Origin: Bacteroidota bacterium
Lineage (GTDB): Bacteria > Bacteroidota > Bacteroidia > 2-12-FULL-35-15
Assembly (NCBI GenBank): GCA_023251835.1
Contig: JAHEXZ010000038.1
Coordinates: forward strand, 1 to 47,683
Direction of reading: 5' to 3'
Length of the DNA stretch: 47,683 bases
Part shown: in pieces, positions 9,341 to 41,318 of the stretch
Layout of the letters: each line of letters begins with the position of its first letter
Position numbering within the stretch: the first letter of the stretch is position 1
Notes under the pieces: model-generated
What the model saw: only the letters and a program-made list of their open reading frames with translations
The model's database searches: none
Told to the model about the DNA's origin: nothing
Position numbers and translations under genes: made by a program

Positions 9341-12300
9341 ATGAAAGTTAATTATTATTCCGTTATTACCTCCATTTTATTTTTTCTGTCATTAGTATCA
9401 TTTCACGCTCAGGCAAATAATGAATGGACTTGGACAGCAGAAAACCCTAAGTCTTTTATTGAAAACAAAGGGCAGTTTCGGACAAATAATCCCATGGATA
9501 CCGTTCTTTACGCCTATGACGATGGCACAACCATGATTTATTTCACTACAAAAGGTATCATTTACCGTTTTTTAAAAGCCCTTAAAAAGGAAGAAAAAGA
9601 AGAAGAGCAGGAAAAGCAAAGAGAAAGAGAAAAAAAAATCGGAACCATTGAAGAATGGAAAAAACATGAGGCCGAGGAGCATCGGGTAAAATATAAAATC
9701 GGGTATGTCAACTTTTTATGGGAAAATTCCAATCCGAATGTTCAGATAATCGCACAGGAGCAAACAGAAGATTATTACAGCTATACATACAAAGAAAAAG
9801 ATGGCGCATTGAAAAATAGTAATTATATCAAAGGATATAAAAAACTGATATATAAAAACCTCTATCCCAATATAGATGTTGAATACGTTTTTCACCCTGT
9901 GGATGGAATAAAATATACGCTAATTATACATCCTGGTGCCAACGTTTCTGCCATTAAAATGAAATATGATAATGATGTTGATCTTAAAGCAAACGGGGAA
10001 TTACATATATCTACTTTATTCGGAAAAATTATTGAGCATGCCCCTGTTACATTTTATGCAAATAATACATCCTCCATTATTCCCTGCCGCTTCTCCAAAA
10101 CAGGCTCAACAATATCCTTTAAAGTGGGTAGTCATGATCAGACAAAAACCATTTATATAGACCCCTGGGTGCAAACTCCCACCCTGTCTAACTCCAACTG
10201 TGTATGGGAATGTGAAAAGGATGGCTCAGGAAATGTATATATCATAGGGGGTGATATGCCTATGAAGCTCAGGAAATACAACTCTTCCGGCACAATGCAA
10301 TGGACTTATACTACTCCCTGGGATACAGCAAATGGATGGCTTGGAACTTTGGCGACAGACCTGGCCGGGAATAGTTATATTACTAATGGAGCCAGTGATG
10401 CTGTAATACAAAAAATAAACTCTGGTGGTTCTATGCTGTATAGTACAACCGGTGGCATGAATGATGAATATTGGAATATTTCTTTTAATTGCGACCAAAC
10501 AAAATTAATTGTTGGAGGAACCCGGTTAACAGGAATGCCATCCATAACAGGAGATGGAGTAATCTTTGACATAAATACCTCTGATGGAAGTGTTAATGGA
10601 GTTCAAATAGTTGGTAAAGCCCGCTCATCAATTGTTTTTGGATTCCCAATGGTTGTTGCTGAAGAGGTAAGATCCATGACCTCATCACGTGGAGCAAAAT
10701 ATTATTTCCTCACACTTGACACCATTGGTGCCATCAGCCAGAATTTTTCAGTCTGCCCTAATTCAAGCAACTTGTTCAACATAAACCATACGTATAATTT
10801 TGGTTATAAATGTGAAAATTATCGTCCGGAAAATGGAAATTCGGGCATGAAAGCCATAAAAGCCAATGGAAACTTTGTTTATACTCAAAATGGCACTACT
10901 ATTCACAAACGTTCTCTTGCATCTGGCGCTATCCTGGCAAGTGCTGCTATAACAGGAGGTATTTCTACCAGCTCAGCCGGGTTTAATATGGCGGGTAACA
11001 GCGGTATCGATATTGATAGCTGCGGCAATGTTTATGTGGGTTCCGGTAACGCTGTTATAAAATACGATGCCAACCTTAACCAACTTTCCTCTACTCCCCT
11101 GCCATTTCGTGTTTATGATGTGGCTGTTAGTTACAATGGAGATGTTATTGTTTGCGGGGGCACAGGAGATAATTCCAACACTTCAAGAACGGGATATGTA
11201 CAATCTGTTAATATGTCTGCATGCGATCCAATGATACTGTTTTGTTGCGATGCCACAATATGTCCTGCCGGCCCCTATTGTACAAATGATGCTCCGGTAA
11301 CTTTAACTCCTTCAACAGCAGGGGGAACATGGACTGGCCCGGGAATCACCAACACCTCTACTGGCACATTTGACCCTTCTGTTGCAGGAGCGGGAATTCA
11401 TACCATTATTTATACATTATCCTGTGGCTCTGATTCAATAACTATTGAAGTATCCTGCTGCGGTGCCAGCATTAACCCTGTTGGCAGTTTCTGCCTTGCC
11501 GATGCACCAACAACTTTAACCGCGGCTCAATCTGGAGGTACATGGAGTGGGCCGGGCATTACCAACGCTTCTGCCGGGACTTTTGATCCAGGTACTGCAG
11601 GAGCAGGCACACACACCATAATTTATACACTTAGCGGCTGTGGCAGTGACTCTATATTTATTTCGGTAGGTACTTGCGTTTCACTTACCGCTTGTCAGGA
11701 AACAAATGGAGACATCACCGCTACAAGTGGAACGGCTCCTTATAACTGGTATAACCAAACTACCACACAAGATTGCAGCGCATGCACATTTGGTTGTGCT
11801 TTTCCCCCCGGATGTGCTGTTAATATTACATCATGGACAAGCTTTGCAAGTGGAACTACTATTACTCCTTCAGGAACCTATCCGGTAAAATTAGTTGATA
11901 ACAATGGCGACAGCTTAGTACTCAATAGCTTATCTTCATTACCAACCTGCCCATCAACCAGCTGTCCTAATATAACAACTACCGCTTCCAATATAATAGC
12001 TGCCAGTTGTCCCGGATTATTGGATGGCAGCTTTGATGCTTCTACAACAGGAGGTACATCACCCTGGGATTACACATTAAAAAATAGTGGCGGAACAACA
12101 GTAGCCACATTTTCAAATATTGCAGGAATACAAAGTTTTACAGCCCTTGCAGCAGGTATCTATACCTTATATTCTTTTGATACAAACAACTGTTCTGATA
12201 CTATCACTGTTACTATTACTGAACCTTCAGGAAATATAACAACTGCCAATGCAGGACCAGACCAATCTGTTTGTAGTAATTCTGCAATCCTGGCTGGCAA

Positions 12301-13465
12301 TACTCCCACTTCTGGTACCGGAGGGTGGTCATTAGTAAGCGGCACAGCTACTATCACCACTCCATCTTCACCTACATCAGGTGTTACCGGAATAGCCATC
12401 GGAACCATAGTTTTGGAATGGACAATCAGTGATGCCTGCACTTCTTCTTCTGACACAGTAAGTATTACAAATACAGGAGGAGGACCTGTAGTTACCGTTA
12501 CTTCACATACTGATATTACCTGTTATGGCGATAATAACGGTGGTGCCACCGTATCTGCCAGCGGAGGTAGTGGAAACCTCACATACACATGGGCTCCAAG
12601 TGGAGGTAGTGATTCAATCGCTACAAACCTGCAAGCCGGAACATATACCATTTCTGTAACAGATACTGCAGGTTGTACCGGCATTGAAACACTAACCATT
12701 ACAGAACCCACAGCTATTACAGTCAGCACTACTACCACTCCGGCCGGTTGCACTAATAATGGAACTGCTACGGCACCCGCAAATGGCGGAACAGGCTCCT
12801 TTACTTATTTGTGGAATACTGGTGAAAGCACTTCTACGATTAATAATTTAAGTGCCGGTACTTACACCATAACCGTTACAGATAGCCTGGGCTGCACAGA
12901 AACACAAACAGACACTGTTGCCTCAACCGGAGGAATAACAGTCGCCATCAGCCAGAGCGATACTATTAGCCTTGGAGCCTCCGTACAACTATCTGCTTCG
13001 GGTGGTAGTAGCTATTTATGGTCACCTACTACCGGCTTAGATTGCAATAACTGTCAAACCCCTGTAGCCAGCCCGCCAGAAACAACAATCTATTGCGTAA
13101 TTGCTACTGACAACGGATGCTCTGATACAGCGTGTACAACCATTACTGTAATTGACGAAGACTGCTCAACAAATAATGTAACTGCAGGCGCTGTTTATGT
13201 TCCCAACGCGTTTACGCCTGATAATAATGATATTCTGAATGATGTATTTAAACCCGTAGTTAACTGTATTCATGATTATACGTTTTTAATTTTTGACCGT
13301 TGGGGAGAAAAGCTGTTTGAGACTTCAAACATTGATGAGGGCTGGAATGGATATTATAAAGGAGTTTTATGCAAACCCGATGTATACGTTTATAAAGTCA
13401 CTTTTATAGATGACCCGAAAGGTAGTTATCATGAATACATTGGGCGAGTAGTATTATTAAAGTAG
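9341..13465 (+). CDS. Large secreted protein: DUF7948-like head, SprB-like repeats, T9SS type B sorting domain
   Basis: A 1374-aa exported protein with a signal peptide (about 1-25, FHAQA). The mature N-terminus has FIENKGQ (39-45), typical of the DUF7948 head of Bacteroidota surface proteins. A strongly charged Lys/Glu helix (about 80-115) interrupts this head. A region resembling a WD/SBBP-like propeller follows (about 285-625). Two ~70-residue repeats (about 635-707 and 707-773) share GGTWTGPGITN/GGTWSGPGITN and paired cysteines. SprB-like repeats occupy about 875-965, 1050-1115 and 1125-1195 (for example NLQAGTYTISVTDTAGC). The last ~90 residues (VYVPNAFTPDNND to GRVVLLK) are the gliding-motility-type (type B) sorting domain, so T9SS export to the surface is expected. 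It is probably an adhesin or structural surface protein; ligand unknown. Confidence 0.88.
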   Translation: MKVNYYSVITSILFFLSLVSFHAQANNEWTWTAENPKSFIENKGQFRTNNPMDTVLYAYDDGTTMIYFTTKGIIYRFLKALKKEEKEEEQEKQREREKKIGTIEEWKKHEAEEHRVKYKIGYVNFLWENSNPNVQIIAQEQTEDYYSYTYKEKDGALKNSNYIKGYKKLIYKNLYPNIDVEYVFHPVDGIKYTLIIHPGANVSAIKMKYDNDVDLKANGELHISTLFGKIIEHAPVTFYANNTSSIIPCRFSKTGSTISFKVGSHDQTKTIYIDPWVQTPTLSNSNCVWECEKDGSGNVYIIGGDMPMKLRKYNSSGTMQWTYTTPWDTANGWLGTLATDLAGNSYITNGASDAVIQKINSGGSMLYSTTGGMNDEYWNISFNCDQTKLIVGGTRLTGMPSITGDGVIFDINTSDGSVNGVQIVGKARSSIVFGFPMVVAEEVRSMTSSRGAKYYFLTLDTIGAISQNFSVCPNSSNLFNINHTYNFGYKCENYRPENGNSGMKAIKANGNFVYTQNGTTIHKRSLASGAILASAAITGGISTSSAGFNMAGNSGIDIDSCGNVYVGSGNAVIKYDANLNQLSSTPLPFRVYDVAVSYNGDVIVCGGTGDNSNTSRTGYVQSVNMSACDPMILFCCDATICPAGPYCTNDAPVTLTPSTAGGTWTGPGITNTSTGTFDPSVAGAGIHTIIYTLSCGSDSITIEVSCCGASINPVGSFCLADAPTTLTAAQSGGTWSGPGITNASAGTFDPGTAGAGTHTIIYTLSGCGSDSIFISVGTCVSLTACQETNGDITATSGTAPYNWYNQTTTQDCSACTFGCAFPPGCAVNITSWTSFASGTTITPSGTYPVKLVDNNGDSLVLNSLSSLPTCPSTSCPNITTTASNIIAASCPGLLDGSFDASTTGGTSPWDYTLKNSGGTTVATFSNIAGIQSFTALAAGIYTLYSFDTNNCSDTITVTITEPSGNITTANAGPDQSVCSNSAILAGNTPTSGTGGWSLVSGTATITTPSSPTSGVTGIAIGTIVLEWTISDACTSSSDTVSITNTGGGPVVTVTSHTDITCYGDNNGGATVSASGGSGNLTYTWAPSGGSDSIATNLQAGTYTISVTDTAGCTGIETLTITEPTAITVSTTTTPAGCTNNGTATAPANGGTGSFTYLWNTGESTSTINNLSAGTYTITVTDSLGCTETQTDTVASTGGITVAISQSDTISLGASVQLSASGGSSYLWSPTTGLDCNNCQTPVASPPETTIYCVIATDNGCSDTACTTITVIDEDCSTNNVTAGAVYVPNAFTPDNNDILNDVFKPVVNCIHDYTFLIFDRWGEKLFETSNIDEGWNGYYKGVLCKPDVYVYKVTFIDDPKGSYHEYIGRVVLLK

Positions 13466-14696: not shown

Positions 14697-17600
14697 TTAA
14701 TATTCGTATTTCAACAGCACTAATGAGCCTATTTTAGTGTGTTTTTCAGCAGGTTTGGACTTTTTTGCGTAGTTAATGCGATAAGAATAAACACCATCAG
14801 GAGCTTTTTTACCCTCAACCATTCCATCCCATCCTTTTTGTATATCATTTGATTCATAAATAATTTCACCCCAGCGATCAAAAATATACAAATTGAAATT
14901 TATCAGGTCGTTTCCATAAACATAAAATATATCGTTCATATTATCACCGTTAGGCGTAAATGCTTCAGGAACGTAAATAGTTTCAATATCATTCACCGTA
15001 ATTGCTATTGTGGCGCTATCATAACAACCCGGACCATAAATAGCATACAATGTAATATTATAAATACCTGGAGCTGTATAAATTGTGGTGGTATTAAAAT
15101 TTAATGAATCAATTGTTCCATTTCCAAAATCCCACAACCAATAGTTATAATTAGCACTATAGTTCTCTAATGACACATCTGTGCCCAAGATGATCTCACC
15201 TACTGTAGTAAGCTGAAATGCTGCATCAGGGCGTAGATTTACATTTACAGCGGCAATAATGGTGGTATCATCCTCACAACCCAATGCGTTTTTAGCAGTT
15301 AGGGTAACATTATAAATTCCCTGATTGACATAAGTGTGTATAGGCGGCTCATTTCCGGTATAAGTGCTTCCATCACCAAAATTCCAGCTCCAATAGGTTG
15401 CGTCAATAGAAGCATCGGTAAAAAGAACTGTTCCGCCACTACAAATCACTGTGCTACTTTGTGTAAACGCTGCCGTTGGAGCCGGAAGAATATGTACGGT
15501 AGCATTATCATTGTCAGAACAGCCGTCTATTGAAGTCACTGTTAATGTAACATTATATGTTCCCGGGGTATAAGCATGCGAAGGATTTTGTAAAGTAGAG
15601 GTTGCGCTGCCATCTCCAAAATTCCATAACCAGGAAGCCGAACCGGGAGATACATCCATAAATTGTTCGATTAAAGGATAACAAACCGTATCATTGATGT
15701 ATGAGATTTCTGCATCGGGTACAACCCATACAGAAATAATATTATTTCTTACTATTGAATCAGAATATATAAAATTACCAGCAGTTAGTTTAACCGAATA
15801 ATTACCCGGAGTTGAATAAATATGAAGTGGATTTTGCAATGATGATGTAGGAGTTCCATCCCCAAAATCCCATTCCCACCAGGTAGCATTACCAGAAGTA
15901 GTGTCGGTAAAAAATACAGATGTGCTGCCACAAATTTGTGTTTGAGTATAGGTAAATCCGGCATAAACATAAGGAGCAACAACTATGTTCAATGTATCAG
16001 AACAAATACTGGTGCAACCATTGGTATCTGTTACAGCAACAGAATAATTATAGGTACCGGTAGCACCATAAAGATGAGTAGGACTTGCTGATGTATCTAT
16101 ACCACCATCACCAAAGTTCCAATTATAAGTAAATGGAGCACCACCTGAAACTACTGCATTAAAAGCTGTATTAGCACCGAGGTAATGGTTTTGCGAACTA
16201 CAGCTAACGGAAGGTAATGGATTTACAGTAATTACAAAAGGCAAAGAGGTTACGGGAGAATTAAGCGGACAGGCATAAGAGCTTGTCATTACACAGGTAA
16301 TTATATCTCCATCATTGAAAGAAGATGAAGTAAAGGAACTTGTTGTAACCCCGGCACTTGTTCCATTTACATTCCATTGATATCCAGGGTAACCTCCCCC
16401 GTTTAAAGGCAAAGCATAAAAGGTGGATTGTTCGCCCTGGCAAATTACAGGATCAGAAGCAGAAACAAAGACATCAGTAGTTAAAAAAGGCACTACATCC
16501 ACATAAAAAGTATCTATTTTAGACCATCCGCAGCAAGGCGATTTTGTTTTAAGAGTTATCATGTACTTTCCAAGTGTTGTTGGAAACGAATAGGTGAAGG
16601 TTGAGCTATTTCCTGTTTGGGCAGGAATAGTTGAGCCAGGGTTATAGATTTTCCAGTCGTAACCTAAAACGGTAAATGTAGTAGGGAATGTTGCAGAAAA
16701 TGTTTCGGTATTACCCGGGCAAACCGTATCAGAGCCGGTAATAGAAGGAAGAACAAGTGAACCATCTGAAAAAACCCCCGTAAAATCAGTAAACATATAG
16801 GGAACACCATCTACAACAAGGGTAATAGAATGTCGTCCCATAGTAATATATTGTGTCATAACCGAATCACCACTGGCACTGAGCGGTACAGAGCCTCCAT
16901 CAAAAAACCATTGAAGGATACCAGTTGCATTGGTGGTATAATGTATATCGGAAAACGTACAGCCCGTATTTTGAAGATAAATAGCCGGCTCTACAGTTGC
17001 TTTCATGTCTGATTGAGCAATAGCCACTCCATCAGGATCTTCATACAAAGGTAAACTTACTCCAGGAGATCCATTACCACCATTACCACCTTTACCACCC
17101 TTGCCACCGGCACCACCGGCACCACCCGTTCCGATATCGCATCCAATACCACCGCTACCAGCACCAGAACTGCCTCCACCATTTCCTCCGGGAGTACCAC
17201 CCAAGCTACCGGCTCCCTGTAATTCTGTATTAAGGAAACAATCCTTAAGATAAGTATTCACACCATTGGTATCAATATAAATTCCAAAAGAACCACCACC
17301 ACCTTGTCCGCCAGTAGCACCAAAACCACCTTCTCCACCTTCGCCACCACCACCGCCACCGGGGCCGGCACCATTATTATTACCAAAACAGGTATTTACG
17401 CAACCTTGTGAGCCACCGCCACCACCGCCACCACCGCCACCACCATGATCTCCCTGGTCGCCATCCTGGCCATCACCAGGAATAAAATATGTACCAAAGC
17501 CCACTATTCCGTTGGCACCATCAGCACCATCGGCACCATCGATACCATCGGCACCATCAGCACCAATACTTGCAGGAGTCTGGTCACAACCAAAAGAGAT

Positions 17601-18428
17601 TGGCATTCCACACATTCCAAATCCACCAGCACCACCGGCACCACCACCAGTACCCAAACCTACCTGACCTGGCGAACCATTAGGGGCTGTTCCTCCTAAA
17701 CCAAAGCATACACCCGTTCCTCTTGCACCACCATCTCCGCCATTACCACCCGCATTACTTCCCGGATAAGAGCCGGAACCACCGATACCTCCGGCAGTAC
17801 AACAACCTCCATCTTCATCTCCCGGTTCACCAAGTGAGCCATTAGCACCATTTACCCCATCAGTGCCAAGTATACCATCATCACCTCGGGTACCATTTCC
17901 GGATGTAATGGTAAGACGTGAAAAGATGTAATTATAACTGTTTGTAACATGTATTCCATAAGTGCTTGCGCTATTAGCGCTGACAGGAGCATCACTGACA
18001 TTAATGGTGATGTCATGAATGCTGAAGTTATTAATGCTGCCGCATTCCACCGCTACAATACGGTTGGGATTCGCATCTATATTTGATGAATCTCTGAAAA
18101 TTACTGTTTGCAGGGAGTTTGTTTTTTGCCAGTTGTTAGCCGGGTCAAAACCACCTTCCATGGTGATACCGCTTATCATAGGAAGATTGTTAGCAATTGT
18201 ATAATTGCCAACAGCAAGCCAAAGCTGGCTGTTGGTAGGGCTGACAAGGGTAAAAGCGTAGTCAATAGAAGCCGGATTTGCAATAGTGCCTGCGGTTCCG
18301 CTGGAAGCTCCTGTTGGAGTAACATAAATAATATTACACTCCTGGGCATAAATACTAAAAGTTTTCCAGAGTAGTGGAAAAATAATAGTTTGTAAGAAGA
18401 AAATTTTAACTAAAAGTCTGTATCTCAT
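14697..18428 (-). CDS. Glycine-rich beta-helix/PKD surface protein A, T9SS type B signal
   Basis: A 1243-aa exported protein, the distal member of three tandem paralogs. The signal peptide ends near residue 29 (IYAQ). Residues about 31-175 look like right-handed beta-helix coils (YVTPTGASSGTAG, TMEGGFDP, IHDITINVSD). A long Gly-rich arm (about 176-378) and a shorter one (about 401-453) flank a single beta-helix-like coil (SFGIYIDTNGVNTYLKDCFL). After a conserved module (GCTFSDIHYTTNATG) and Ig-like segments come five PKD domains (about 750-1140; WNFGDG-type cores). The last ~95 residues (VPEAFTPNGDN to SLVLLKYEY) are a T9SS type B sorting domain. No catalytic site was recognised. Function unknown; a surface or matrix structural role or adhesin is likely. 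Confidence 0.87.
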   Translation of the reverse strand: MRYRLLVKIFFLQTIIFPLLWKTFSIYAQECNIIYVTPTGASSGTAGTIANPASIDYAFTLVSPTNSQLWLAVGNYTIANNLPMISGITMEGGFDPANNWQKTNSLQTVIFRDSSNIDANPNRIVAVECGSINNFSIHDITINVSDAPVSANSASTYGIHVTNSYNYIFSRLTITSGNGTRGDDGILGTDGVNGANGSLGEPGDEDGGCCTAGGIGGSGSYPGSNAGGNGGDGGARGTGVCFGLGGTAPNGSPGQVGLGTGGGAGGAGGFGMCGMPISFGCDQTPASIGADGADGIDGADGADGANGIVGFGTYFIPGDGQDGDQGDHGGGGGGGGGGGSQGCVNTCFGNNNGAGPGGGGGGEGGEGGFGATGGQGGGGSFGIYIDTNGVNTYLKDCFLNTELQGAGSLGGTPGGNGGGSSGAGSGGIGCDIGTGGAGGAGGKGGKGGNGGNGSPGVSLPLYEDPDGVAIAQSDMKATVEPAIYLQNTGCTFSDIHYTTNATGILQWFFDGGSVPLSASGDSVMTQYITMGRHSITLVVDGVPYMFTDFTGVFSDGSLVLPSITGSDTVCPGNTETFSATFPTTFTVLGYDWKIYNPGSTIPAQTGNSSTFTYSFPTTLGKYMITLKTKSPCCGWSKIDTFYVDVVPFLTTDVFVSASDPVICQGEQSTFYALPLNGGGYPGYQWNVNGTSAGVTTSSFTSSSFNDGDIITCVMTSSYACPLNSPVTSLPFVITVNPLPSVSCSSQNHYLGANTAFNAVVSGGAPFTYNWNFGDGGIDTSASPTHLYGATGTYNYSVAVTDTNGCTSICSDTLNIVVAPYVYAGFTYTQTQICGSTSVFFTDTTSGNATWWEWDFGDGTPTSSLQNPLHIYSTPGNYSVKLTAGNFIYSDSIVRNNIISVWVVPDAEISYINDTVCYPLIEQFMDVSPGSASWLWNFGDGSATSTLQNPSHAYTPGTYNVTLTVTSIDGCSDNDNATVHILPAPTAAFTQSSTVICSGGTVLFTDASIDATYWSWNFGDGSTYTGNEPPIHTYVNQGIYNVTLTAKNALGCEDDTTIIAAVNVNLRPDAAFQLTTVGEIILGTDVSLENYSANYNYWLWDFGNGTIDSLNFNTTTIYTAPGIYNITLYAIYGPGCYDSATIAITVNDIETIYVPEAFTPNGDNMNDIFYVYGNDLINFNLYIFDRWGEIIYESNDIQKGWDGMVEGKKAPDGVYSYRINYAKKSKPAEKHTKIGSLVLLKYEY

Positions 18429-18534
18429 TCTAAAAAAATCAATCTGCGAATTACGAACCTGCCTTAATTTTTATTCCCGTATTGATACAAAAGCATATAA
18501 TATGGTTGCTCTAATAAGCAAATTATTTTTTTTT

Positions 18535-18573
18535 AGAGCCTATTTAAAATTAAATAAATTTCAAATAGGCTCT
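18535..18573. repeat. Inverted repeat between glycine-rich genes A and B
   Basis: Eleven-base arms (AGAGCCTATTT at 18535-18545, AAATAGGCTCT at 18563-18573) with a 17-nt loop; the right arm touches the stop codon of gene B. Reading the minus strand, A's rather than T's follow the stem, so it is not a canonical terminator. It could stabilise or punctuate a gene B-gene A transcript. Confidence 0.6.
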
Positions 18574-21500
18574 TACTCTTGGTAAACAAGTTTTGTGTAA
18601 TGCCTTTGTTCATTATATTCCAGTTCCAATAAATACATTCCAGGAACAAGTTTTTCGCTTATCTCGTTTAATTTCAGCTGTTGTTCGCCTTTATTAAGGC
18701 TTTTCTTTTCAGAAATTATTTTTATTCCTTCTATATTTAGAAGGGAAATAGTTAATGTGCTTTCTTTAGGTGCTGAAAATCCGATAGTTAGTTCAGAGGA
18801 AAAAGGATTTGGGAACACATGAATATTTGAATCGGAGAGTTGGAATTCATCAATTCCCACGTTAATTTTTACAAATGTTGGTTTATAAGTAGTATCAGAG
18901 CATCCGTAATCGTTAGATACAAGTAATGATATGTTATAGTTTCCGTTTGCAGAATATATGTGCATAGGATTCTGCAAATTACTGGTATCTCCATCGCCAA
19001 AATCCCACAGCCAGGAAGTAGCATCTACTGAATTGTCGGCAAAATAAACAGTATCTCCATGCTGGGATAGATATGCCTGGAAGTTTGCTACAGGCCTTGG
19101 ATATACATAAATCTGACCTGTTACAATTGAGGTATCGGTTCCGGTTGCACCAAATGCCATTAACGTTACTGTATATAACCCGGAATTCAAATAAAAATGA
19201 GATGGGTTTTCTAATACAGATGTAGTGCCATCGCCAAAGTCCCATAGATAAGTAATTGCATATACACTGGTATTAAAAAAATCTACTTTTAATACAGGAC
19301 AACCAGCGTCAGTAGATGTTTCGAATCCTGCACTGAGTTCTGTAGAAATGATAGCAGTACCAGAGCAACTACCGGCACATCCATTAGAATCAGTCACATT
19401 TACCTGATAATCATATGCTCCGGCTATCTGATAGATGTGTGATACAGAATCTCCGGCACCAGCAGCTCCATCACCAAAGCTCCAGGAATAAGAAAAAGGA
19501 GCAACACCTCCGGAGGTTACTGAGGCGGACAAGTTTGTAGGCATTCCCGATATGAATGATTCAGCAGTACAAGTAACCACCGGAGGATCGATAACCGTTA
19601 CCCCAATAGAGCTGGAAGTATCTTTCTGACCTGTTGAACAGCCAAGAGAAGATGTAACGACACAAGAAACACTATCAGCATTGGCAAGGGAGTTAGAAAT
19701 AAAAACAGGATAATTTCCTCCCGCAGGATTTCCATTTACCAGCCATTGGTAGGAAGGAGTTGTTCCGGCATTGGTTGCGCCAGCACTAAAGGTGAATGAA
19801 GCACCACTACACGCTATATTCGAAGGGCTTTCAGACTGAATTTGTATTTCAGGCATAATTATACCTTCAACATGTACAGTCATTGTATCCGGGAATGATT
19901 CTCCGCAGCAGTAATCTACAATTCGAAGGATTATCTGATAAGTACCTGCCGAATCAAAGGAATAAGTAGCATTTTGGAAAGCGGAGCCCGTAATTGTATC
20001 AATGATAGTATTATTTTTCACAATATACCAGATGTAGTCATCAGCGGTAACGGATGATGAATAGGTAGCCGGAGTATTTACACATACATTGCTATCAGCA
20101 GAAGTTATATCCGGGATGATTCCTGCACCGTTGCTGAAAATTTCAATAAAATCGGTATAGGTGTATGCAATTCCATTATTCACCATTGTAAATGTTTTTC
20201 TACTCTGTGTAGTATATTTAGTGGTAGCTGTGATACTATTACCAGATGCAGGGGAGGCTCCTGCTCCAAAGAACCAGATGACGGTTCCTGTTGCGTTTGT
20301 TGAAAAGGTTACAGGGGCGTTGGTGCATCCCGAATATTTAACAAATACAAATGGCTGTTGAAGTGAATAAACGTTTTGTTCAGAAACAGGCGTACCTGCA
20401 CCATCCTCATACAATAAGTAAGTCTCCCCATCAGAGCCAACGCCACCATTTCCGCCATTACCACCTTTTCCACCTTTTCCGCCATCACCGCCAGCGCCAA
20501 CATAACCATTAGCTGCTCCACCTTTTGTTCCACCTAAACCTCCTGTTCCGCCAGCACCACCATTACCACCAACACCTCCAAATCCGGGATTTCCGGAAGT
20601 CATTTTGGTATCTTTTATAACTCCGTTTGCTCCATTGTTATATATATATATGGCGAAAGAGCCTCCACCACCGGTTCCACCCGTTCCAGCGGTTCCACCC
20701 TGCGCGCCTTCACCACCACCACCACCACCGGCACCGGTACCATTATTATTTGGTGGAAGTCCGAAAAGACAATCATAAGGAATACCACCAATGGAGCCAC
20801 CACCACCACCACCACCACCACCACTTCCATTAGTGCCAATAGTTCCTGATGTACCATTGCCAGGCACATAAAAACCACCTGTAAAAGAAGCGCTGCCATT
20901 GTTACCATTGGTTCCGGAAAGTCCATCTGCACCATCAGTACCGGGAGCACCATCATTCAGCGAGGTACGAGGCGGAGTAGAAGGATAAATACATGTTATA
21001 ATTTTTTGTCCCCCCATACCACCGAAGCCTCCTCCACTGCCACCTATTTGGCCATTCTGGCCAGGATAACCATTCGTTGCATGGCTGGGATCTCCGCATA
21101 GGGCACAATCAGCGGTACCTCTTTCTCCACCATCACCGCCATTCCCCCCGACAAGACTTCCTGGGAAAGAACCGGATGCACCTAATCCTCCAGACCGTGG
21201 ACCGGCATCATGGTCTGAGCCATCGTCACCCGGAAAACCATTTGCAGCAGAAATACCACTATTTCCATTGGTACCAATTGTGCCATCACCAGCATTACCA
21301 GCAATTACTTTACAACGTACAATTTGATAGTCGGAACATCCGCTCAAATGAATTCCATAAGTAGAAACACCGCCACCAAAGCCATTTGAAGTTCTTATTG
21401 TTAAATCCTGAAAACGGAAATTGGATATATTGCTGCAATACACTGCCACCAAACGATTAGGGTTGGCTTCTATATTAGAATTATCGCGGTAAATAGTTGT

Positions 21501-21824
21501 TGCAGTAGAGTTGCTCTTTTTCCATGTAGAAGCATTAAACCCTCCTTCAATAGTAAGGTTGGCTTTCATATTGATTGCAGCGGAAATATTATATGTTCCG
21601 GATGCCATGTGAATTTTATTATCTGTTGCAGTTGCCAGTGAGAGTGCATAGGCAAGCGATGCCGGAACAGCCTTTGTGCCAGCAGTTCCGGAAGAGGCTC
21701 CGTTTGGAGTCACATAAATTATAGTGCATTGTTGGGAGAACACCTCTCCCCCAGCTCCTTTCCATAAGAGTGGGAAGAGAAGAATTAGTGTGAATAGAAG
21801 TTTATATTTTAGTTTTGATGACAT
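18573..21824 (-). CDS. Glycine-rich beta-helix/PKD surface protein B, T9SS type A signal
   Basis: A 1083-aa exported protein, middle member of the tandem trio. The signal peptide (about 1-31) contains the odd segment FPLLWKGAGGE, possibly derived from an intergenic repeat. The head (about 33-174) is closely similar to paralogs A and C (YVTPNGASSGTAGTKA, TIEGGFNAS, RDNSNIEANPNRLVAV). Gly-rich arms span about 175-388 and 408-466, around a beta-helix-like coil (SFAIYIYNNGANGVIKD). Three PKD domains (cores near 781, 865 and 941) follow Ig-like segments. The C-terminal ~80 residues (IHVFPNPFSSE to KLVYQE) are a T9SS type A sorting domain, unlike the type B domain of A. The codons for the polyglycine hold a perfect (CCA)9 tract on the plus strand. 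Function unknown. Confidence 0.87.
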   Translation of the reverse strand: MSSKLKYKLLFTLILLFPLLWKGAGGEVFSQQCTIIYVTPNGASSGTAGTKAVPASLAYALSLATATDNKIHMASGTYNISAAINMKANLTIEGGFNASTWKKSNSTATTIYRDNSNIEANPNRLVAVYCSNISNFRFQDLTIRTSNGFGGGVSTYGIHLSGCSDYQIVRCKVIAGNAGDGTIGTNGNSGISAANGFPGDDGSDHDAGPRSGGLGASGSFPGSLVGGNGGDGGERGTADCALCGDPSHATNGYPGQNGQIGGSGGGFGGMGGQKIITCIYPSTPPRTSLNDGAPGTDGADGLSGTNGNNGSASFTGGFYVPGNGTSGTIGTNGSGGGGGGGGGSIGGIPYDCLFGLPPNNNGTGAGGGGGGEGAQGGTAGTGGTGGGGSFAIYIYNNGANGVIKDTKMTSGNPGFGGVGGNGGAGGTGGLGGTKGGAANGYVGAGGDGGKGGKGGNGGNGGVGSDGETYLLYEDGAGTPVSEQNVYSLQQPFVFVKYSGCTNAPVTFSTNATGTVIWFFGAGASPASGNSITATTKYTTQSRKTFTMVNNGIAYTYTDFIEIFSNGAGIIPDITSADSNVCVNTPATYSSSVTADDYIWYIVKNNTIIDTITGSAFQNATYSFDSAGTYQIILRIVDYCCGESFPDTMTVHVEGIIMPEIQIQSESPSNIACSGASFTFSAGATNAGTTPSYQWLVNGNPAGGNYPVFISNSLANADSVSCVVTSSLGCSTGQKDTSSSIGVTVIDPPVVTCTAESFISGMPTNLSASVTSGGVAPFSYSWSFGDGAAGAGDSVSHIYQIAGAYDYQVNVTDSNGCAGSCSGTAIISTELSAGFETSTDAGCPVLKVDFFNTSVYAITYLWDFGDGTTSVLENPSHFYLNSGLYTVTLMAFGATGTDTSIVTGQIYVYPRPVANFQAYLSQHGDTVYFADNSVDATSWLWDFGDGDTSNLQNPMHIYSANGNYNISLLVSNDYGCSDTTYKPTFVKINVGIDEFQLSDSNIHVFPNPFSSELTIGFSAPKESTLTISLLNIEGIKIISEKKSLNKGEQQLKLNEISEKLVPGMYLLELEYNEQRHYTKLVYQE
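20797..20823. repeat. Perfect (CCA)9 microsatellite in gene B
   Basis: Nine uninterrupted CCA units on the plus strand, encoding part of a polyglycine run on the minus strand. Neighbouring tracts (17417-17443 in gene A, 24331-24360 in gene C) are similar but interrupted by CCG units. Slippage here would change length in steps of one residue without a frameshift. Confidence 0.9.
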
Positions 21825-21840
21825 TGAACCTCACCCCAAT

Positions 21841-21865
21841 CCCCTCTCCTTTTAAAGGAGAGGGG
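21841..21865. repeat. REP-like palindrome between genes B and C
   Basis: CCCCTCTCC and GGAGAGGGG (21841-21849 with 21857-21865) flank TTTTAAA, a self-complementary hairpin in a 49-nt gap between two coding regions. Similar CTCTCC/GGAGAG hairpins are at 30495-30529 and 36174-36210. Confidence 0.8.
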
Positions 21866-21873
21866 TGATATTT

Positions 21874-24800
21874 TTAATTTATAATTATCTTTTTCACTAC
21901 AACCCTTTCTAATTGCTGATTTCCATTATTCACAGAGCTTCCGGACAATTGAGAAGCGGGTAAAATCATTTTCACAAAATAAATTCCTTTGGGTTGATTG
22001 GTTAAATCAACAGATAATGACGCTATTTTTATATTTGATTTCTGATAGGTTACTTCACCAAGGGTATTGATAATTGTTAAAACTTCAATGCTTTCAAGGC
22101 ATCCGGAACAATTTTCGATTTGCAATGTAAACTTTCCGTCATTGGGGTTTGGATAGATTTGTAGTTTATATTCTTCCACTTGTGTTTCTTCTACACCTAC
22201 AGAGGATTGCATAACCACAACCACACTTGTTACTGAAGTAGTACAATTATAATTATATGAGGTGAGTGTTATAGTATATGTTCCCTCAGAAGCAAACACG
22301 TGTGTTGGATTTTGTTCATTGGAAGTAGAACTATCGCCAAAATTCCATAACCAGGCGTTAGAGTTAGCACTTGTGTTTGTAAACGTTACCATTCCCAAAC
22401 CATTCAGGTAAACGGTATCATCAGATTGTGTAAATGCGGCTGTGAGGCCAAGTGATCCGCAGTTGTTCTGAATAGTAATTACGTCTGTAATAGTGTCAGA
22501 ACAGGTAGTATTATTAACAATAAGAAAAACAGGGTATTGTCCGGCCTCTGTGTAGGTATGCGTTGGATTTTGCAGGGTGCTATTGGGCGAACCATCACCG
22601 AAGCTCCAATTCCAGCCAGAAGGCAAAGGAGCGGAGTTGTCAGTAAATGAGACAGCAGCACCAACTGTTCCTGTTGATGGAACATTAAAAGCTGCTGTAA
22701 TTACAGGTAATACACTTAATGTAACACTGTCCTGTGCAAAGCATGCAGATGGACTTGTTACAGTAACTGCATATAGTCCTGCAGCAGCGGTTTGCAATGT
22801 TTGAGCATTACCACCTACAGGCGAGCCATTTAATGTCCAGCTATATGAACAACCAGGATTAGCGGCATCAAGCAATGGAAAAACTTCATTAGAGCATACG
22901 GTATAATTATTTCCTAATTCAATTTCCGGGTCTTTTATTACAAGCACCAGGGTATCTTTTCCTATGCATCCGGTAGCGCTTGTGACGGTAACTCTATATG
23001 TTCCGGCAGCTATTGTTTGTAATGTCTGTGCATTCATCCCGACAGGATTTGAATTCATTGTCCAGAGGTAACTTTGCATTCCGCTTAGTCCGGCATCTAA
23101 TACAGGCAGGGGGTCTGTAGTACAAAGCATGATATCGGAGCCTAAGTCAATATCGAGTTCAGTGAAAATAGTTAAATTCATTGCATCGCTGCCGGAGCAG
23201 CTTCCATAACTTACTGTTACAGCATAGGTTCCTGCCAAGGATGTTTGGAATGTTTGTGAACTGCCACCTGCAGGGTTTCCATTGTATGTCCATTGATAGG
23301 ATGCTCCCGGATTTCCGGCATCAAGCAATGGTTTTTGGTCAGTAAAGCACATAGTGGTGTCCAAGCCAAGGTTAACAGCAGGAGCTGTAATCACTTCAAT
23401 TTCTTTTGTTTTTACTGAAGTTCCGCAACAACTGGTTGTTGTTAATATGATTGTATAGGTACCGGGAGTAGCAAAAGTAACATTACCCGGACTTTGTACT
23501 GAGGAAGTGGTAATTGAGCCACCCGGTATGTTCCAGTTGTATGTATTTGCTGTACCTGTGGTAAAAATATTTACCGCATCGCCCACACACACCACATCTT
23601 TAGAAGTGGATACTTCGGGGGGAGCAAAATCCGTAGGAATATTTATAAAGTTGGCAAGAGGATAAGGCACTCCATCTACAACTAATGTAATGCTTCTAAA
23701 GCCGGGCATACCACTATCATATTGAACAGAGACATTTGAACCTGAAGCATTAGAAGGATTGGCCCCAACACCGAATACCCAATCGACATTACCTGTTGCA
23801 GTGGTTGTAAAAGTAACGTCTGAGTTGGAGCATCCGGAAAACGTTGCAGTTACAGGAGGTTCAAAAGGGTTGTACATATTGGAGAACATCACAGGATCCT
23901 GTCCGGACTGCTGATAAAGAGTTTTACTAACCCCATCAGAACCATTACCACCATTACCTCCCACACCACCTTGTCCGCCTTGTCCACCCGGCCCCCCCTC
24001 TCCTATATTACAACTGTGTAAACCAGTAGAATCATTCATCAGATTACCTCCAAGTCCACCAACACCACCAACACCGCCAGCACCGCCAGTACCACCAGTG
24101 CCACCAGTGCCACCAGCTCCGGGGTTCATAACGCAGTCCCTTACAACACCATTAATTCCATTTGCCCAAACAAAAATTGCAAAAGAGCCACCAGCCCCTG
24201 CACCTCCATAACCAGTGAAACCAGCTTGTCCGCCTTCACCACCGCCTCCACCTCCGCCACCGGAGCCGAACACATAGCTGATTGTATCCCCATTGCCTGG
24301 GTCGAGTATAGCTGGCTGGCAACCTTTAGCACCGCCACCACCACCACCGCCACCGCCACCACCGTTGGTTCCCTGAGTTCCAATACTACCTGTTCCCGGC
24401 ACATAAAATCCCCCGGTATAGGTTGCAGCACCTTGTGTGCCATTTAATCCGGGCAGTCCGTCTATTCCAATAGTACCAGGTTTTCCGTTATTCTGAGTAG
24501 GATCTCCCCAACATTGCTGGTAATACTGCATCTGGCAGACACCAGCTCCACCATTTCCTCCAAGCACTCCTCCATATCCTTGTCCGGCAAAGCCTGGGAG
24601 ACCATCATTGGTATAATCGCCACTGGCGTTATATACTACAAAGCCGAGAACACTATGTGTGTCAATGATAAACCCCCCTCTTTCACCACCGGTTCCACCT
24701 TGTCCACCAGCATAACTTCCAAGGAAAGAACCGCTTGCACCAGCTCCACCCAAACGACAACAGGTTCCACCACCTGTATCATGATCTCCTTCAGAGCCTG

Positions 24801-25383
24801 TTTCGCCAATATTGCCTACTGCTCCAAGCATCCCGGGAGTTCCTGGTGCACCTGGCAGTCCGCCAGATCCATTGCCTGTGTTTATTTTACACCTTGATAT
24901 GATATAATTAGTACAGTTATTAATATATATTCCATACACACTAACTCCATCTCCAACGGCATCGGCAACATTAATGGTAAGGTCAAGCAAACGGAAGCCG
25001 GAAACATTAATGCAAGAAAGAGCTACCAGGCTATTGGGGCTGGTTTGAATGTTTGAATTGTCGCGTTCGATTATTGTAGGGGTTGTATTGCTTTTTACCC
25101 AGGTGGTGGCGTTGAAACCACCTTCGATAGTAATATTGGCTGGAATATTTAATGTGTTGCTGAGGCTATAAGTTCCTTCAGCCATACGCATAATCTTATT
25201 GGCAGAGTTGATAAGTGTAAGTCCGTATGTGAAGTTAGCAGGGGTTGCTTTTGTACCAGCAGTTCCGCCTGATGCACCGCCAGGGGTTACATATACATAA
25301 CCACATTCCTGCGCAGTTGTTGCTAAAAATGCGAAGAGAAAAAAAAGGAGAATAATAAAAGAATTGTAAAAAGTTTTTCTCAT
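21874..25383 (-). CDS. Glycine-rich beta-helix/Ig/PKD surface protein C, T9SS type A signal
   Basis: A 1169-aa exported protein, the promoter-proximal member of the trio. Signal peptide about 1-25 (ATTAQ). The beta-helix-like head (about 26-167; YVTPGGASGGTAGTKA, TIEGGFNATTW) resembles A and B. Gly-rich arms span about 168-398 and 420-484, with the coil SFAIFVWANGINGVVRD between. Three ~75-residue Ig-like repeats (about 670-888) share a pattern of Cys, LLDAGNPG-like, and AQTLQTAAAG-like segments. Two PKD domains (cores near 926 and 1011) precede a T9SS type A sorting domain (about 1070-1169; LQIYPNPNDGK). The end is extended by an Asn/Gln-rich stretch (SSVNNGNQQ) before VVVKKIIIN. Gap to B is 49 bp, so B and C are likely cotranscribed. 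Function unknown. Confidence 0.87.
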   Translation of the reverse strand: MRKTFYNSFIILLFFLFAFLATTAQECGYVYVTPGGASGGTAGTKATPANFTYGLTLINSANKIMRMAEGTYSLSNTLNIPANITIEGGFNATTWVKSNTTPTIIERDNSNIQTSPNSLVALSCINVSGFRLLDLTINVADAVGDGVSVYGIYINNCTNYIISRCKINTGNGSGGLPGAPGTPGMLGAVGNIGETGSEGDHDTGGGTCCRLGGAGASGSFLGSYAGGQGGTGGERGGFIIDTHSVLGFVVYNASGDYTNDGLPGFAGQGYGGVLGGNGGAGVCQMQYYQQCWGDPTQNNGKPGTIGIDGLPGLNGTQGAATYTGGFYVPGTGSIGTQGTNGGGGGGGGGGGAKGCQPAILDPGNGDTISYVFGSGGGGGGGGEGGQAGFTGYGGAGAGGSFAIFVWANGINGVVRDCVMNPGAGGTGGTGGTGGAGGVGGVGGLGGNLMNDSTGLHSCNIGEGGPGGQGGQGGVGGNGGNGSDGVSKTLYQQSGQDPVMFSNMYNPFEPPVTATFSGCSNSDVTFTTTATGNVDWVFGVGANPSNASGSNVSVQYDSGMPGFRSITLVVDGVPYPLANFINIPTDFAPPEVSTSKDVVCVGDAVNIFTTGTANTYNWNIPGGSITTSSVQSPGNVTFATPGTYTIILTTTSCCGTSVKTKEIEVITAPAVNLGLDTTMCFTDQKPLLDAGNPGASYQWTYNGNPAGGSSQTFQTSLAGTYAVTVSYGSCSGSDAMNLTIFTELDIDLGSDIMLCTTDPLPVLDAGLSGMQSYLWTMNSNPVGMNAQTLQTIAAGTYRVTVTSATGCIGKDTLVLVIKDPEIELGNNYTVCSNEVFPLLDAANPGCSYSWTLNGSPVGGNAQTLQTAAAGLYAVTVTSPSACFAQDSVTLSVLPVITAAFNVPSTGTVGAAVSFTDNSAPLPSGWNWSFGDGSPNSTLQNPTHTYTEAGQYPVFLIVNNTTCSDTITDVITIQNNCGSLGLTAAFTQSDDTVYLNGLGMVTFTNTSANSNAWLWNFGDSSTSNEQNPTHVFASEGTYTITLTSYNYNCTTSVTSVVVVMQSSVGVEETQVEEYKLQIYPNPNDGKFTLQIENCSGCLESIEVLTIINTLGEVTYQKSNIKIASLSVDLTNQPKGIYFVKMILPASQLSGSSVNNGNQQLERVVVKKIIIN

Positions 25384-40241: not shown

Positions 40242-41318
40242 ATGAAAATTAGAGTATTGTTATTATTTGCTGCATTATATGCGTTAAGGCTATATGCTCA
40301 GATTCCTCTTGGTTATTACAATTCTGCCCAGGGTTTAACAGGTGCCCCGTTAAAAACAGCTTTACATAATATCATTAAAAATCATACGGTTGCAAGCTAT
40401 AATAGTTTGTGGACACATTTTGAAGATACTGATAAAAAAACAAACGGGAAAGTATGGGATATATATAGTGATCTGCCAGGCGGATCCCCTCCTTATGAAT
40501 ATAGTTTTTCCACAGATCAATGCGGCTCATATAACAGCGAAGCGGATTGTTATAACCGTGAGCATACGTGGCCTCAAAGTTGGTTTAATTCAGAGAATAC
40601 ACCAAGCTCAGATTTATTTCACATATATCCAACAGATGGGTATGTAAATAATATTCGTGGCAATTATCCTTATGGTGACGTTATATCTTCCTCCTGGATT
40701 TCCCAAAACGGTAGCAAGCTTGGACTTTGTGCTGATGCCGGTTATAGTCAGACAGTTTTTGAGCCTTTGGACGAATATAAGGGAGATTTAGCACGAGGTT
40801 ATTTTTATATGAGTACCCGTTACCAAAATGAAGACATTTCCTGGAATACTTCTGCAGCTACCAATAAGTCAGATATTTTACCATGGCAAACAGATGTATT
40901 GTTGAACTGGCATCATTTAGACCCTGTTAGCAGTAAAGAAATTAATCGTAACAATGCCGTATATCAGATTCAGGATAACCGTAATCCTTTTATTGATAAT
41001 CCGCAATGGATAGATAGCATCTGGATACCAAACTACACAAACATCAAGGAGTTGAGGTATTCAACCAAATCCGCTTTTTTACTCTATCCCAACCCGGCAA
41101 CGGATATCTTTTATATTGCTAAACAAGATCGTTCAGAAGAAATTGCAACAATTAATATTTATACGCTACTTGGACAGAAAATATATCCGATTGATAATCA
41201 AAAATTAATTACAGAAAGGACTACATGTATTAATTGTTCGGTTTGGGATAAAGGAGTTTACTATATAAAAGTTACAGCAAATGAACGGGTTGAAATATTA
41301 AAATTTGTAAAAGAATAA
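40242..41318 (+). CDS. Secreted endonuclease I with T9SS type A sorting domain
   Basis: A 358-aa exported nuclease. Signal peptide about 1-20 (RLYAQ). The endonuclease I (NucM/EndA) domain spans about 21-265. It has the motif CYNREHTWPQSWF with the general-base His108 and the metal-site region NNIRGNYPYGDV. The C-terminal ~80 residues (FLLYPNPATDIF to KFVKE) are a T9SS type A sorting domain. It should cut extracellular DNA, perhaps for phosphate or nucleotide scavenging or matrix remodelling. It is probably monocistronic. Confidence 0.93.
   Translation: MKIRVLLLFAALYALRLYAQIPLGYYNSAQGLTGAPLKTALHNIIKNHTVASYNSLWTHFEDTDKKTNGKVWDIYSDLPGGSPPYEYSFSTDQCGSYNSEADCYNREHTWPQSWFNSENTPSSDLFHIYPTDGYVNNIRGNYPYGDVISSSWISQNGSKLGLCADAGYSQTVFEPLDEYKGDLARGYFYMSTRYQNEDISWNTSAATNKSDILPWQTDVLLNWHHLDPVSSKEINRNNAVYQIQDNRNPFIDNPQWIDSIWIPNYTNIKELRYSTKSAFLLYPNPATDIFYIAKQDRSEEIATINIYTLLGQKIYPIDNQKLITERTTCINCSVWDKGVYYIKVTANERVEILKFVKE

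Follow-up and report, generated by a model that had tools for sequence, protein, structure and literature searches.

The window, by which we mean the whole stretch of 47,683 nucleotides that was analyzed, carries three adjacent genes on its minus strand, with ORFs exactly at 14697-18428, 18573-21824 and 21874-25383. In reading direction we refer to them as alpha, beta and gamma; the intergenic gaps are ~49 bases between alpha and beta and ~144 bases between beta and gamma. The initial annotation had correctly described this arrangement and had called the encoded proteins giant; they are large instead (1243, 1083 and 1169 aa for gamma, beta and alpha). In pairwise BLASTP comparisons the three matched one another with E values of 7e-141, 8e-88 and 2e-49 and identities of 37-53%, with most of their length aligned. 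Each protein begins with a hydrophobic N-terminus, followed by a head of ~150 residues, a first glycine-rich block of 200-227 aa, a rung of 21 residues and a second glycine-rich block of 56-64 aa. A beta-sandwich module with the motif (T/S)T(N/T)ATG, PKD/Ig-like repeats and a T9SS sorting domain complete the chain. The features are listed below; the segments marked PGII are predicted polyglycine-II helices.

21874..25383, minus strand: alpha gene (product of 1169 aa), opening the cassette in reading direction, with a T9SS type A tail
24868..25308, minus strand: alpha head, residues 26-172, predicted start of a small right-handed beta-helix (modelled on gamma)
24187..24867, minus strand: alpha Gly-rich insertion 1, six predicted PGII segments
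24124..24186, minus strand: alpha, predicted beta-helix rung between the insertions
23932..24123, minus strand: alpha Gly-rich insertion 2, two predicted PGII segments
21877..22167, minus strand: alpha T9SS type A sorting domain
18573..21824, minus strand: beta gene (product of 1083 aa), between alpha and gamma, with a T9SS type A tail
21291..21731, minus strand: beta head, residues 32-178, predicted beta-helix (Pect-lyase_RHGA_epim E 1.7e-4, below cut-off)
20661..21290, minus strand: beta Gly-rich insertion 1
20598..20660, minus strand: beta, predicted beta-helix rung between the insertions
20427..20597, minus strand: beta Gly-rich insertion 2
18828..20084, minus strand: beta PKD/Ig-like stalk, closest structural match the Aureispira GhpA repeats
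18576..18827, minus strand: beta T9SS type A sorting domain
14697..18428, minus strand: gamma gene (product of 1243 aa), closing the cassette, with a T9SS type B (CHU_C) tail
17892..18341, minus strand: gamma head, residues 30-179, predicted beta-helix (AF2, Foldseek)
17292..17891, minus strand: gamma Gly-rich insertion 1, six predicted PGII segments of ~22, 19, 19, 20, 20 and 24 aa
17229..17291, minus strand: gamma, predicted beta-helix rung between the insertions (AF2)
17061..17228, minus strand: gamma Gly-rich insertion 2, two predicted PGII segments of ~22 and 24 aa
14979..17060, minus strand: gamma beta-sandwich module (YTTNATG...) and PKD repeats (Pfam, AF2)
14700..14978, minus strand: gamma T9SS type B sorting domain

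The shared head motifs and the two glycine-rich blocks noted earlier were found again, the blocks being 37-56% Gly, and the PKD domains were confirmed with the Pfam profile PKD_4 (E 1e-61, 1e-44 and 5e-29 across the three proteins). The module motif had been given as TTNATG or TTTATG; this holds in general but not for the middle protein, beta, where it is STNATG. Because the two glycine-rich blocks are separated by an extra beta-helix rung, with the sequence GGSFxIYxxxNGxxxxxKDC, we treat head, blocks and rung as one domain. Open frames were also seen antisense to Gly-rich regions, at 24514-24897 in the window and at L009:3533-4135 on another contig of the genome, the latter proline-rich; they look like by-products of GGX codons, not genes. 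A search with the Bacteroidota promoter pattern found no site in the gap between alpha and the PhoH gene. Near the cassette, two genes from gamma and on the opposite strand, lies a T9SS surface protein of 1374 aa (9341-13465) with DUF7948, SprB repeats and a type B tail. The window further encodes an Endonuclease I whose sorting domain is of T9SS type A (40242-41318), apparently a nuclease exported by the T9SS.

The lengths and conservation of the glycine segments were taken from an alignment of 73 relatives (A3). Its Gly columns form eight segments, of approximately 22, 19, 19, 20, 20 and 24 residues before the rung and 22 and 24 residues after it. Several segments are equal in length across all clades, and a few differ by one to five residues. 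Within the segments Gly is spaced three residues apart, and GXX, GGX and poly-G stretches are all seen. A global period-3 Fourier test on the blocks gave no signal, since the phase of the Gly residues changes between segments, and a local test was used instead; in this test the period-3 amplitude was 0.149, against 0.089 +/- 0.009 for shuffled sequences, and none of 5000 shuffles reached it. The near-fixed lengths of the eight segments among the 73 relatives, together with this amplitude, exclude chance. A collagen-like triple helix was considered and rejected: the segments are short, change phase, include GGX and poly-G stretches and are joined by conserved loops, and the continuous one-phase G-X-Y repeat of collagen was not found.

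A structure of gamma residues 29-575 was modelled with AF2 from the alignment of 73 relatives (mean pLDDT 92.5). Head and rung are predicted as beta strands, while the glycine segments, at a pLDDT of ~95 (mostly 94-98), are assigned almost no helix or strand. A model of full-length beta gave the same layout at lower confidence (pLDDT 84.3). The triplet periodicity, taken with this confident assignment to neither helix nor strand, suggests the geometry of a PGII bundle. According to the models, the eight triplet-periodic segments would be set into a small right-handed beta-helix at two of its turns, and the tips of the proteins appear to be rigid bundles of glycine helices rising from it. The glycine-rich blocks, previously pictured as arms, are thus by prediction a compact bundle inserted in the beta-helix. 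They are kept in close homologs: all head-bearing relatives with enough sequence have a Gly fraction of ~0.31-0.46 over the following 330 aa.

Two other readings of the glycine-rich blocks were weighed against these data. Short GGX-like tandem repeats are present in the DNA, as would be expected of flexible low-complexity linkers expanded by repeat slippage, but the segment lengths are near-fixed in four paralogous clades, conservation in the Gly columns is as high as 90-100% and the model has high confidence, and we find slippage scarcely credible. The bundle could also be an ice-binding or general physical-protection surface comparable to the snow flea antifreeze protein, whose PGII domain has five or six helices (PMC10216338), and small residues do occupy the X positions of the predicted helices. 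An ice-binding face should, however, be conserved and flat, whereas the X positions rank with the most variable columns (mean entropy 2.56 bits) and conservation lies instead in the loops and slots described below; such a role seems very improbable.

The head had been proposed to be a beta-helix of no named family. The predicted strands support the fold, as do the top Foldseek matches of the head model, which were beta-helix lyases, and no Pfam family matched the head above cut-off. Foldseek found the beta-helix and no PGII match, and a profile search of PDB sequences returned low-complexity Gly matches only. The best structural matches were PL9 rhamnogalacturonan/pectate lyases (5olr, E 3.6e-4; 1ru4, E 7.9e-3), and K74, R84, D111 and R143 are conserved in the head alignment, as might be expected if the head were a polysaccharide lyase or a related carbohydrate-active enzyme carried on a stalk. 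Against this, only ~170 columns could be aligned, with TM-scores of 0.21-0.26, the helix is short, with the Gly insertions filling its turns, and the Pfam search gave no PL9 match; the only lyase family to appear there, Pect-lyase_RHGA_epim, was sub-threshold and on beta alone. Enzyme function of the head is possible, not supported, and we judge the lyase reading improbable.

A scan of 84,980 species with two peptide patterns, by which very distant relatives would be missed, yielded 71 loci. All are in Bacteroidota, and nearly all are in uncultured genomes; the single named isolate, Crocinitomix algicola (L080), has only a distant version. Of 395 genomes sampled from the class, 69 carry the head (E <= 1e-20), in 31 of 196 genera, and a phylum-wide sample added only two weak matches. 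Even within its own genus the cassette is patchy, with the head in 8 of 32 genomes. Searches of plasmids, phages and viral contigs found no relatives. Within the genome itself, head matches on contig C144 proved to be other repeat-rich secreted proteins (PA14-like by eye) and were discarded as relatives. The genome also has a fourth paralogue with the head: delta (1277 aa, type B tail), on a separate contig, C116 (in the region L009:579-7671).

In a quick maximum-likelihood tree of 85 proteins, with support given as SH-aLRT without bootstrap, the relatives fell into four clades, alpha (11 rows, SH-aLRT 100), beta (17, 99), gamma (22, 100) and delta (21, 98); every clade includes several families. 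Tail type, as read from the sequences, is constant by clade: the 8 alpha and 16 beta proteins checked have type A, and the 19 gamma and 16 delta proteins have type B. The order alpha-beta-gamma is kept across families while the flanking genes differ (for example L016, L017, L018 and L023). All 16 beta loci outside the window have a gamma-clade gene on the same locus, and beta and gamma were always on one contig where both were visible; in three near relatives (L030, L035 and L042) gamma precedes beta, with ~2.7-3.1 kb between them. The same spacing is seen in other genomes (G484, G485 and G541). The copies are not always in tandem, delta being separate and alpha sometimes unlinked from the cassette. 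From the four clades, the constant tails and an order that persists amid changing flanks, we conclude that the duplication is old and that the three slots have been separate ever since. Repeated duplication of one ancestor, as first proposed, is thus borne out as paralogy but not as a local burst, since one-to-one slots are kept across families. Recurrence of the same set in the same order suggests a working unit, not a stray gene duplication.

Several variant loci were also seen. An extra, fourth head-bearing gene (~1111 aa) stands between beta and gamma in L033 (6573-9905) and on contig C102 of G541; it falls inside the gamma clade in the tree and has a type A tail in L033. At L028:3130-6601 alpha is read as two ORFs, of 470 and 740 aa; the first translation has X, for unread or masked bases, near its end, and the split may come from an assembly gap and not from a broken gene. 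The head and Gly-rich region also occur in mid-chain in larger proteins of ~1300-2900 aa (L081:8351-13639, L035:3-3951, G015, G024 and G039), in L081 together with SprB repeats; the module seems to have been shuffled between surface proteins.

The T9SS export signals claimed for the cassette were matched by Pfam and TIGR profiles on all three proteins, TIGR04131/CHU_C on gamma (CHU_C E 3e-18) and TIGR04183/Por_Secre_tail on alpha and beta (Por_Secre_tail E 7e-10 and 3e-9). Their N-termini, read from the sequence, are hydrophobic, as expected for the signal peptide of T9SS cargo, and the host genome encodes the T9SS translocon SprA (TIGR04189, 2629 bits). A search of the same genome with gamma gave 188 matches, spread over the genome and mostly to PKD or T9SS-tail regions, which indicates that large T9SS proteins, surface-bound or secreted, are numerous in this organism. 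Published work shows type B cargo bound to PorP-like proteins (PMC9143113). Delta is followed by a PorP/SprF gene (PF11751, E 2.8e-33) and in 5 other loci adjoins members of one PorP/SprF-like cluster, so that it fits well, by analogy, with PorP-type anchoring of type B cargo. The cassette itself has no neighbouring PorP/SprF gene in the window, nor do most cassette loci elsewhere, and none was found beside gamma. Upstream of delta in L009 are a cytidylate-kinase-like gene and an outer-membrane barrel-like gene, the latter with a weak Toluene_X match.

The loops at the ends of the Gly segments were compared by pairwise identity, as alignment-wide entropies are diluted by gap columns. Within alpha, beta or gamma the loops are 37-58% identical, the heads being 56-59% identical. 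Between slots the loops are 17-41% identical, and the four loops presumed to be distal, a position deduced from the predicted antiparallel topology, are 17-33% identical. The loops contain cysteines, which the Gly segments almost completely lack. An all-family alignment had suggested hypervariable tip loops by analogy with phage gp38, which was unsupported within orthologous clades. Since the tip loops are conserved within a slot and different between slots, the three proteins probably do fixed, different jobs, which fits heads with fixed, slot-specific contacts.

The constancy of the loops within each slot also bears on a reading in which each head docks onto another head, of its own or another kind, so that alpha, beta and gamma together form one surface layer or fibrous matrix and the PGII bundles serve as structural joints. 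Three obligate-looking slots in a fixed order and a predicted rigid Gly bundle would agree with such an assembly. The structural models covered monomers, and delta, with the same head, occurs without the cassette (for example in G015), which counts against such an assembly; we give mutual binding only a minor chance.

We consider it probable, with some reserve, that the cassette is a three-part set of T9SS-exported surface fibres with PGII recognition heads. In each protein the beta-helix would stand at the start of the chain, with its two turn insertions rising into a rigid bundle of eight PGII helices; the beta-sandwich module and PKD/Ig stalk would follow, and the T9SS sorting domain would close the chain. 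The head would be the recognition tip, and the loops at the free end of the bundle, fixed and different in each protein, would bind a constant partner, which may be a surface polymer, another cell or one another. Alpha and beta, with type A tails, would be attached by the type A route, and a PorP/SprF-like barrel would anchor gamma, whose tail is type B. We infer that the three are located at the surface, bind and co-operate there, with a role in adhesion or matrix formation. A further conjecture, which we think doubtful, is that they make up a single undescribed surface appendage or layer of uncultured Bacteroidia, in which rigid PGII heads of three fixed kinds dock mutually or onto a common receptor and the A/A/B tails provide two anchoring routes.

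A literature search of partial coverage found no description matching the cassette. With SprB and Aureispira GhpA it shares T9SS export and an Ig/PKD-type stalk, and, in delta, type B cargo next to PorP/SprF. The best solved structural matches of the beta protein were GhpA fragments (E 1e-19, ~20% identity); this resemblance is what would be expected for chains of Ig/PKD domains, and the low TM-scores probably reflect differing domain angles. The cassette proteins are, however, far shorter than SprB and GhpA, are encoded by a set of three genes in which type A and type B tails are mixed, and have a predicted beta-helix/PGII head, which does not figure in the descriptions of SprB and GhpA searched. 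The PL9 enzymes (Pel9A, rhamnogalacturonan lyase 5olr) resemble the heads in their right-handed beta-helix core, whereas the cassette heads have a short helix, two large Gly insertions and no sequence-family match. In the mycobacterial PE_PGRS proteins GGX triplets have been modelled as a PGII sandwich (PMC10216338). These have a PE domain, many short helices (7-54) and large indels, in contrast to the beta-helix head and eight helices of near-fixed length predicted here; membership of this group was rejected, as the Pfam scan gave no PE match.

The closest architecture with a published structure is that of the gp38 adhesins of phages S16 and PP01, in which extensions of two beta-helix turns form a PGII sandwich with receptor-binding loops (PMC6851490, PMC12892980). 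The beta-helix, two turn extensions, PGII bundle and free-end loops are all shared, though only as a prediction for the cassette proteins, whose heads are not members of the gp38 family; no sequence similarity was found in phage records. In gp38 there are 10 short Gly motifs (73 residues, 37 of them Gly), compared with eight longer segments of 19-24 aa here, and gp38 has a gp37-binding helical bundle where the cassette proteins have a signal peptide followed by the beta-helix, PKD stalk and T9SS tail. The gp38 loops are hypervariable and change with host range, whereas those of the cassette are conserved within each slot, which weakens a direct functional analogy. The PGII bundle is a rare fold, seen in phage gp38 tips and an antifreeze protein and predicted in PE_PGRS. 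A conserved three-protein T9SS cassette with PGII-like heads would be a widespread cellular use of this fold and a candidate surface recognition or assembly system in uncultured Bacteroidia.
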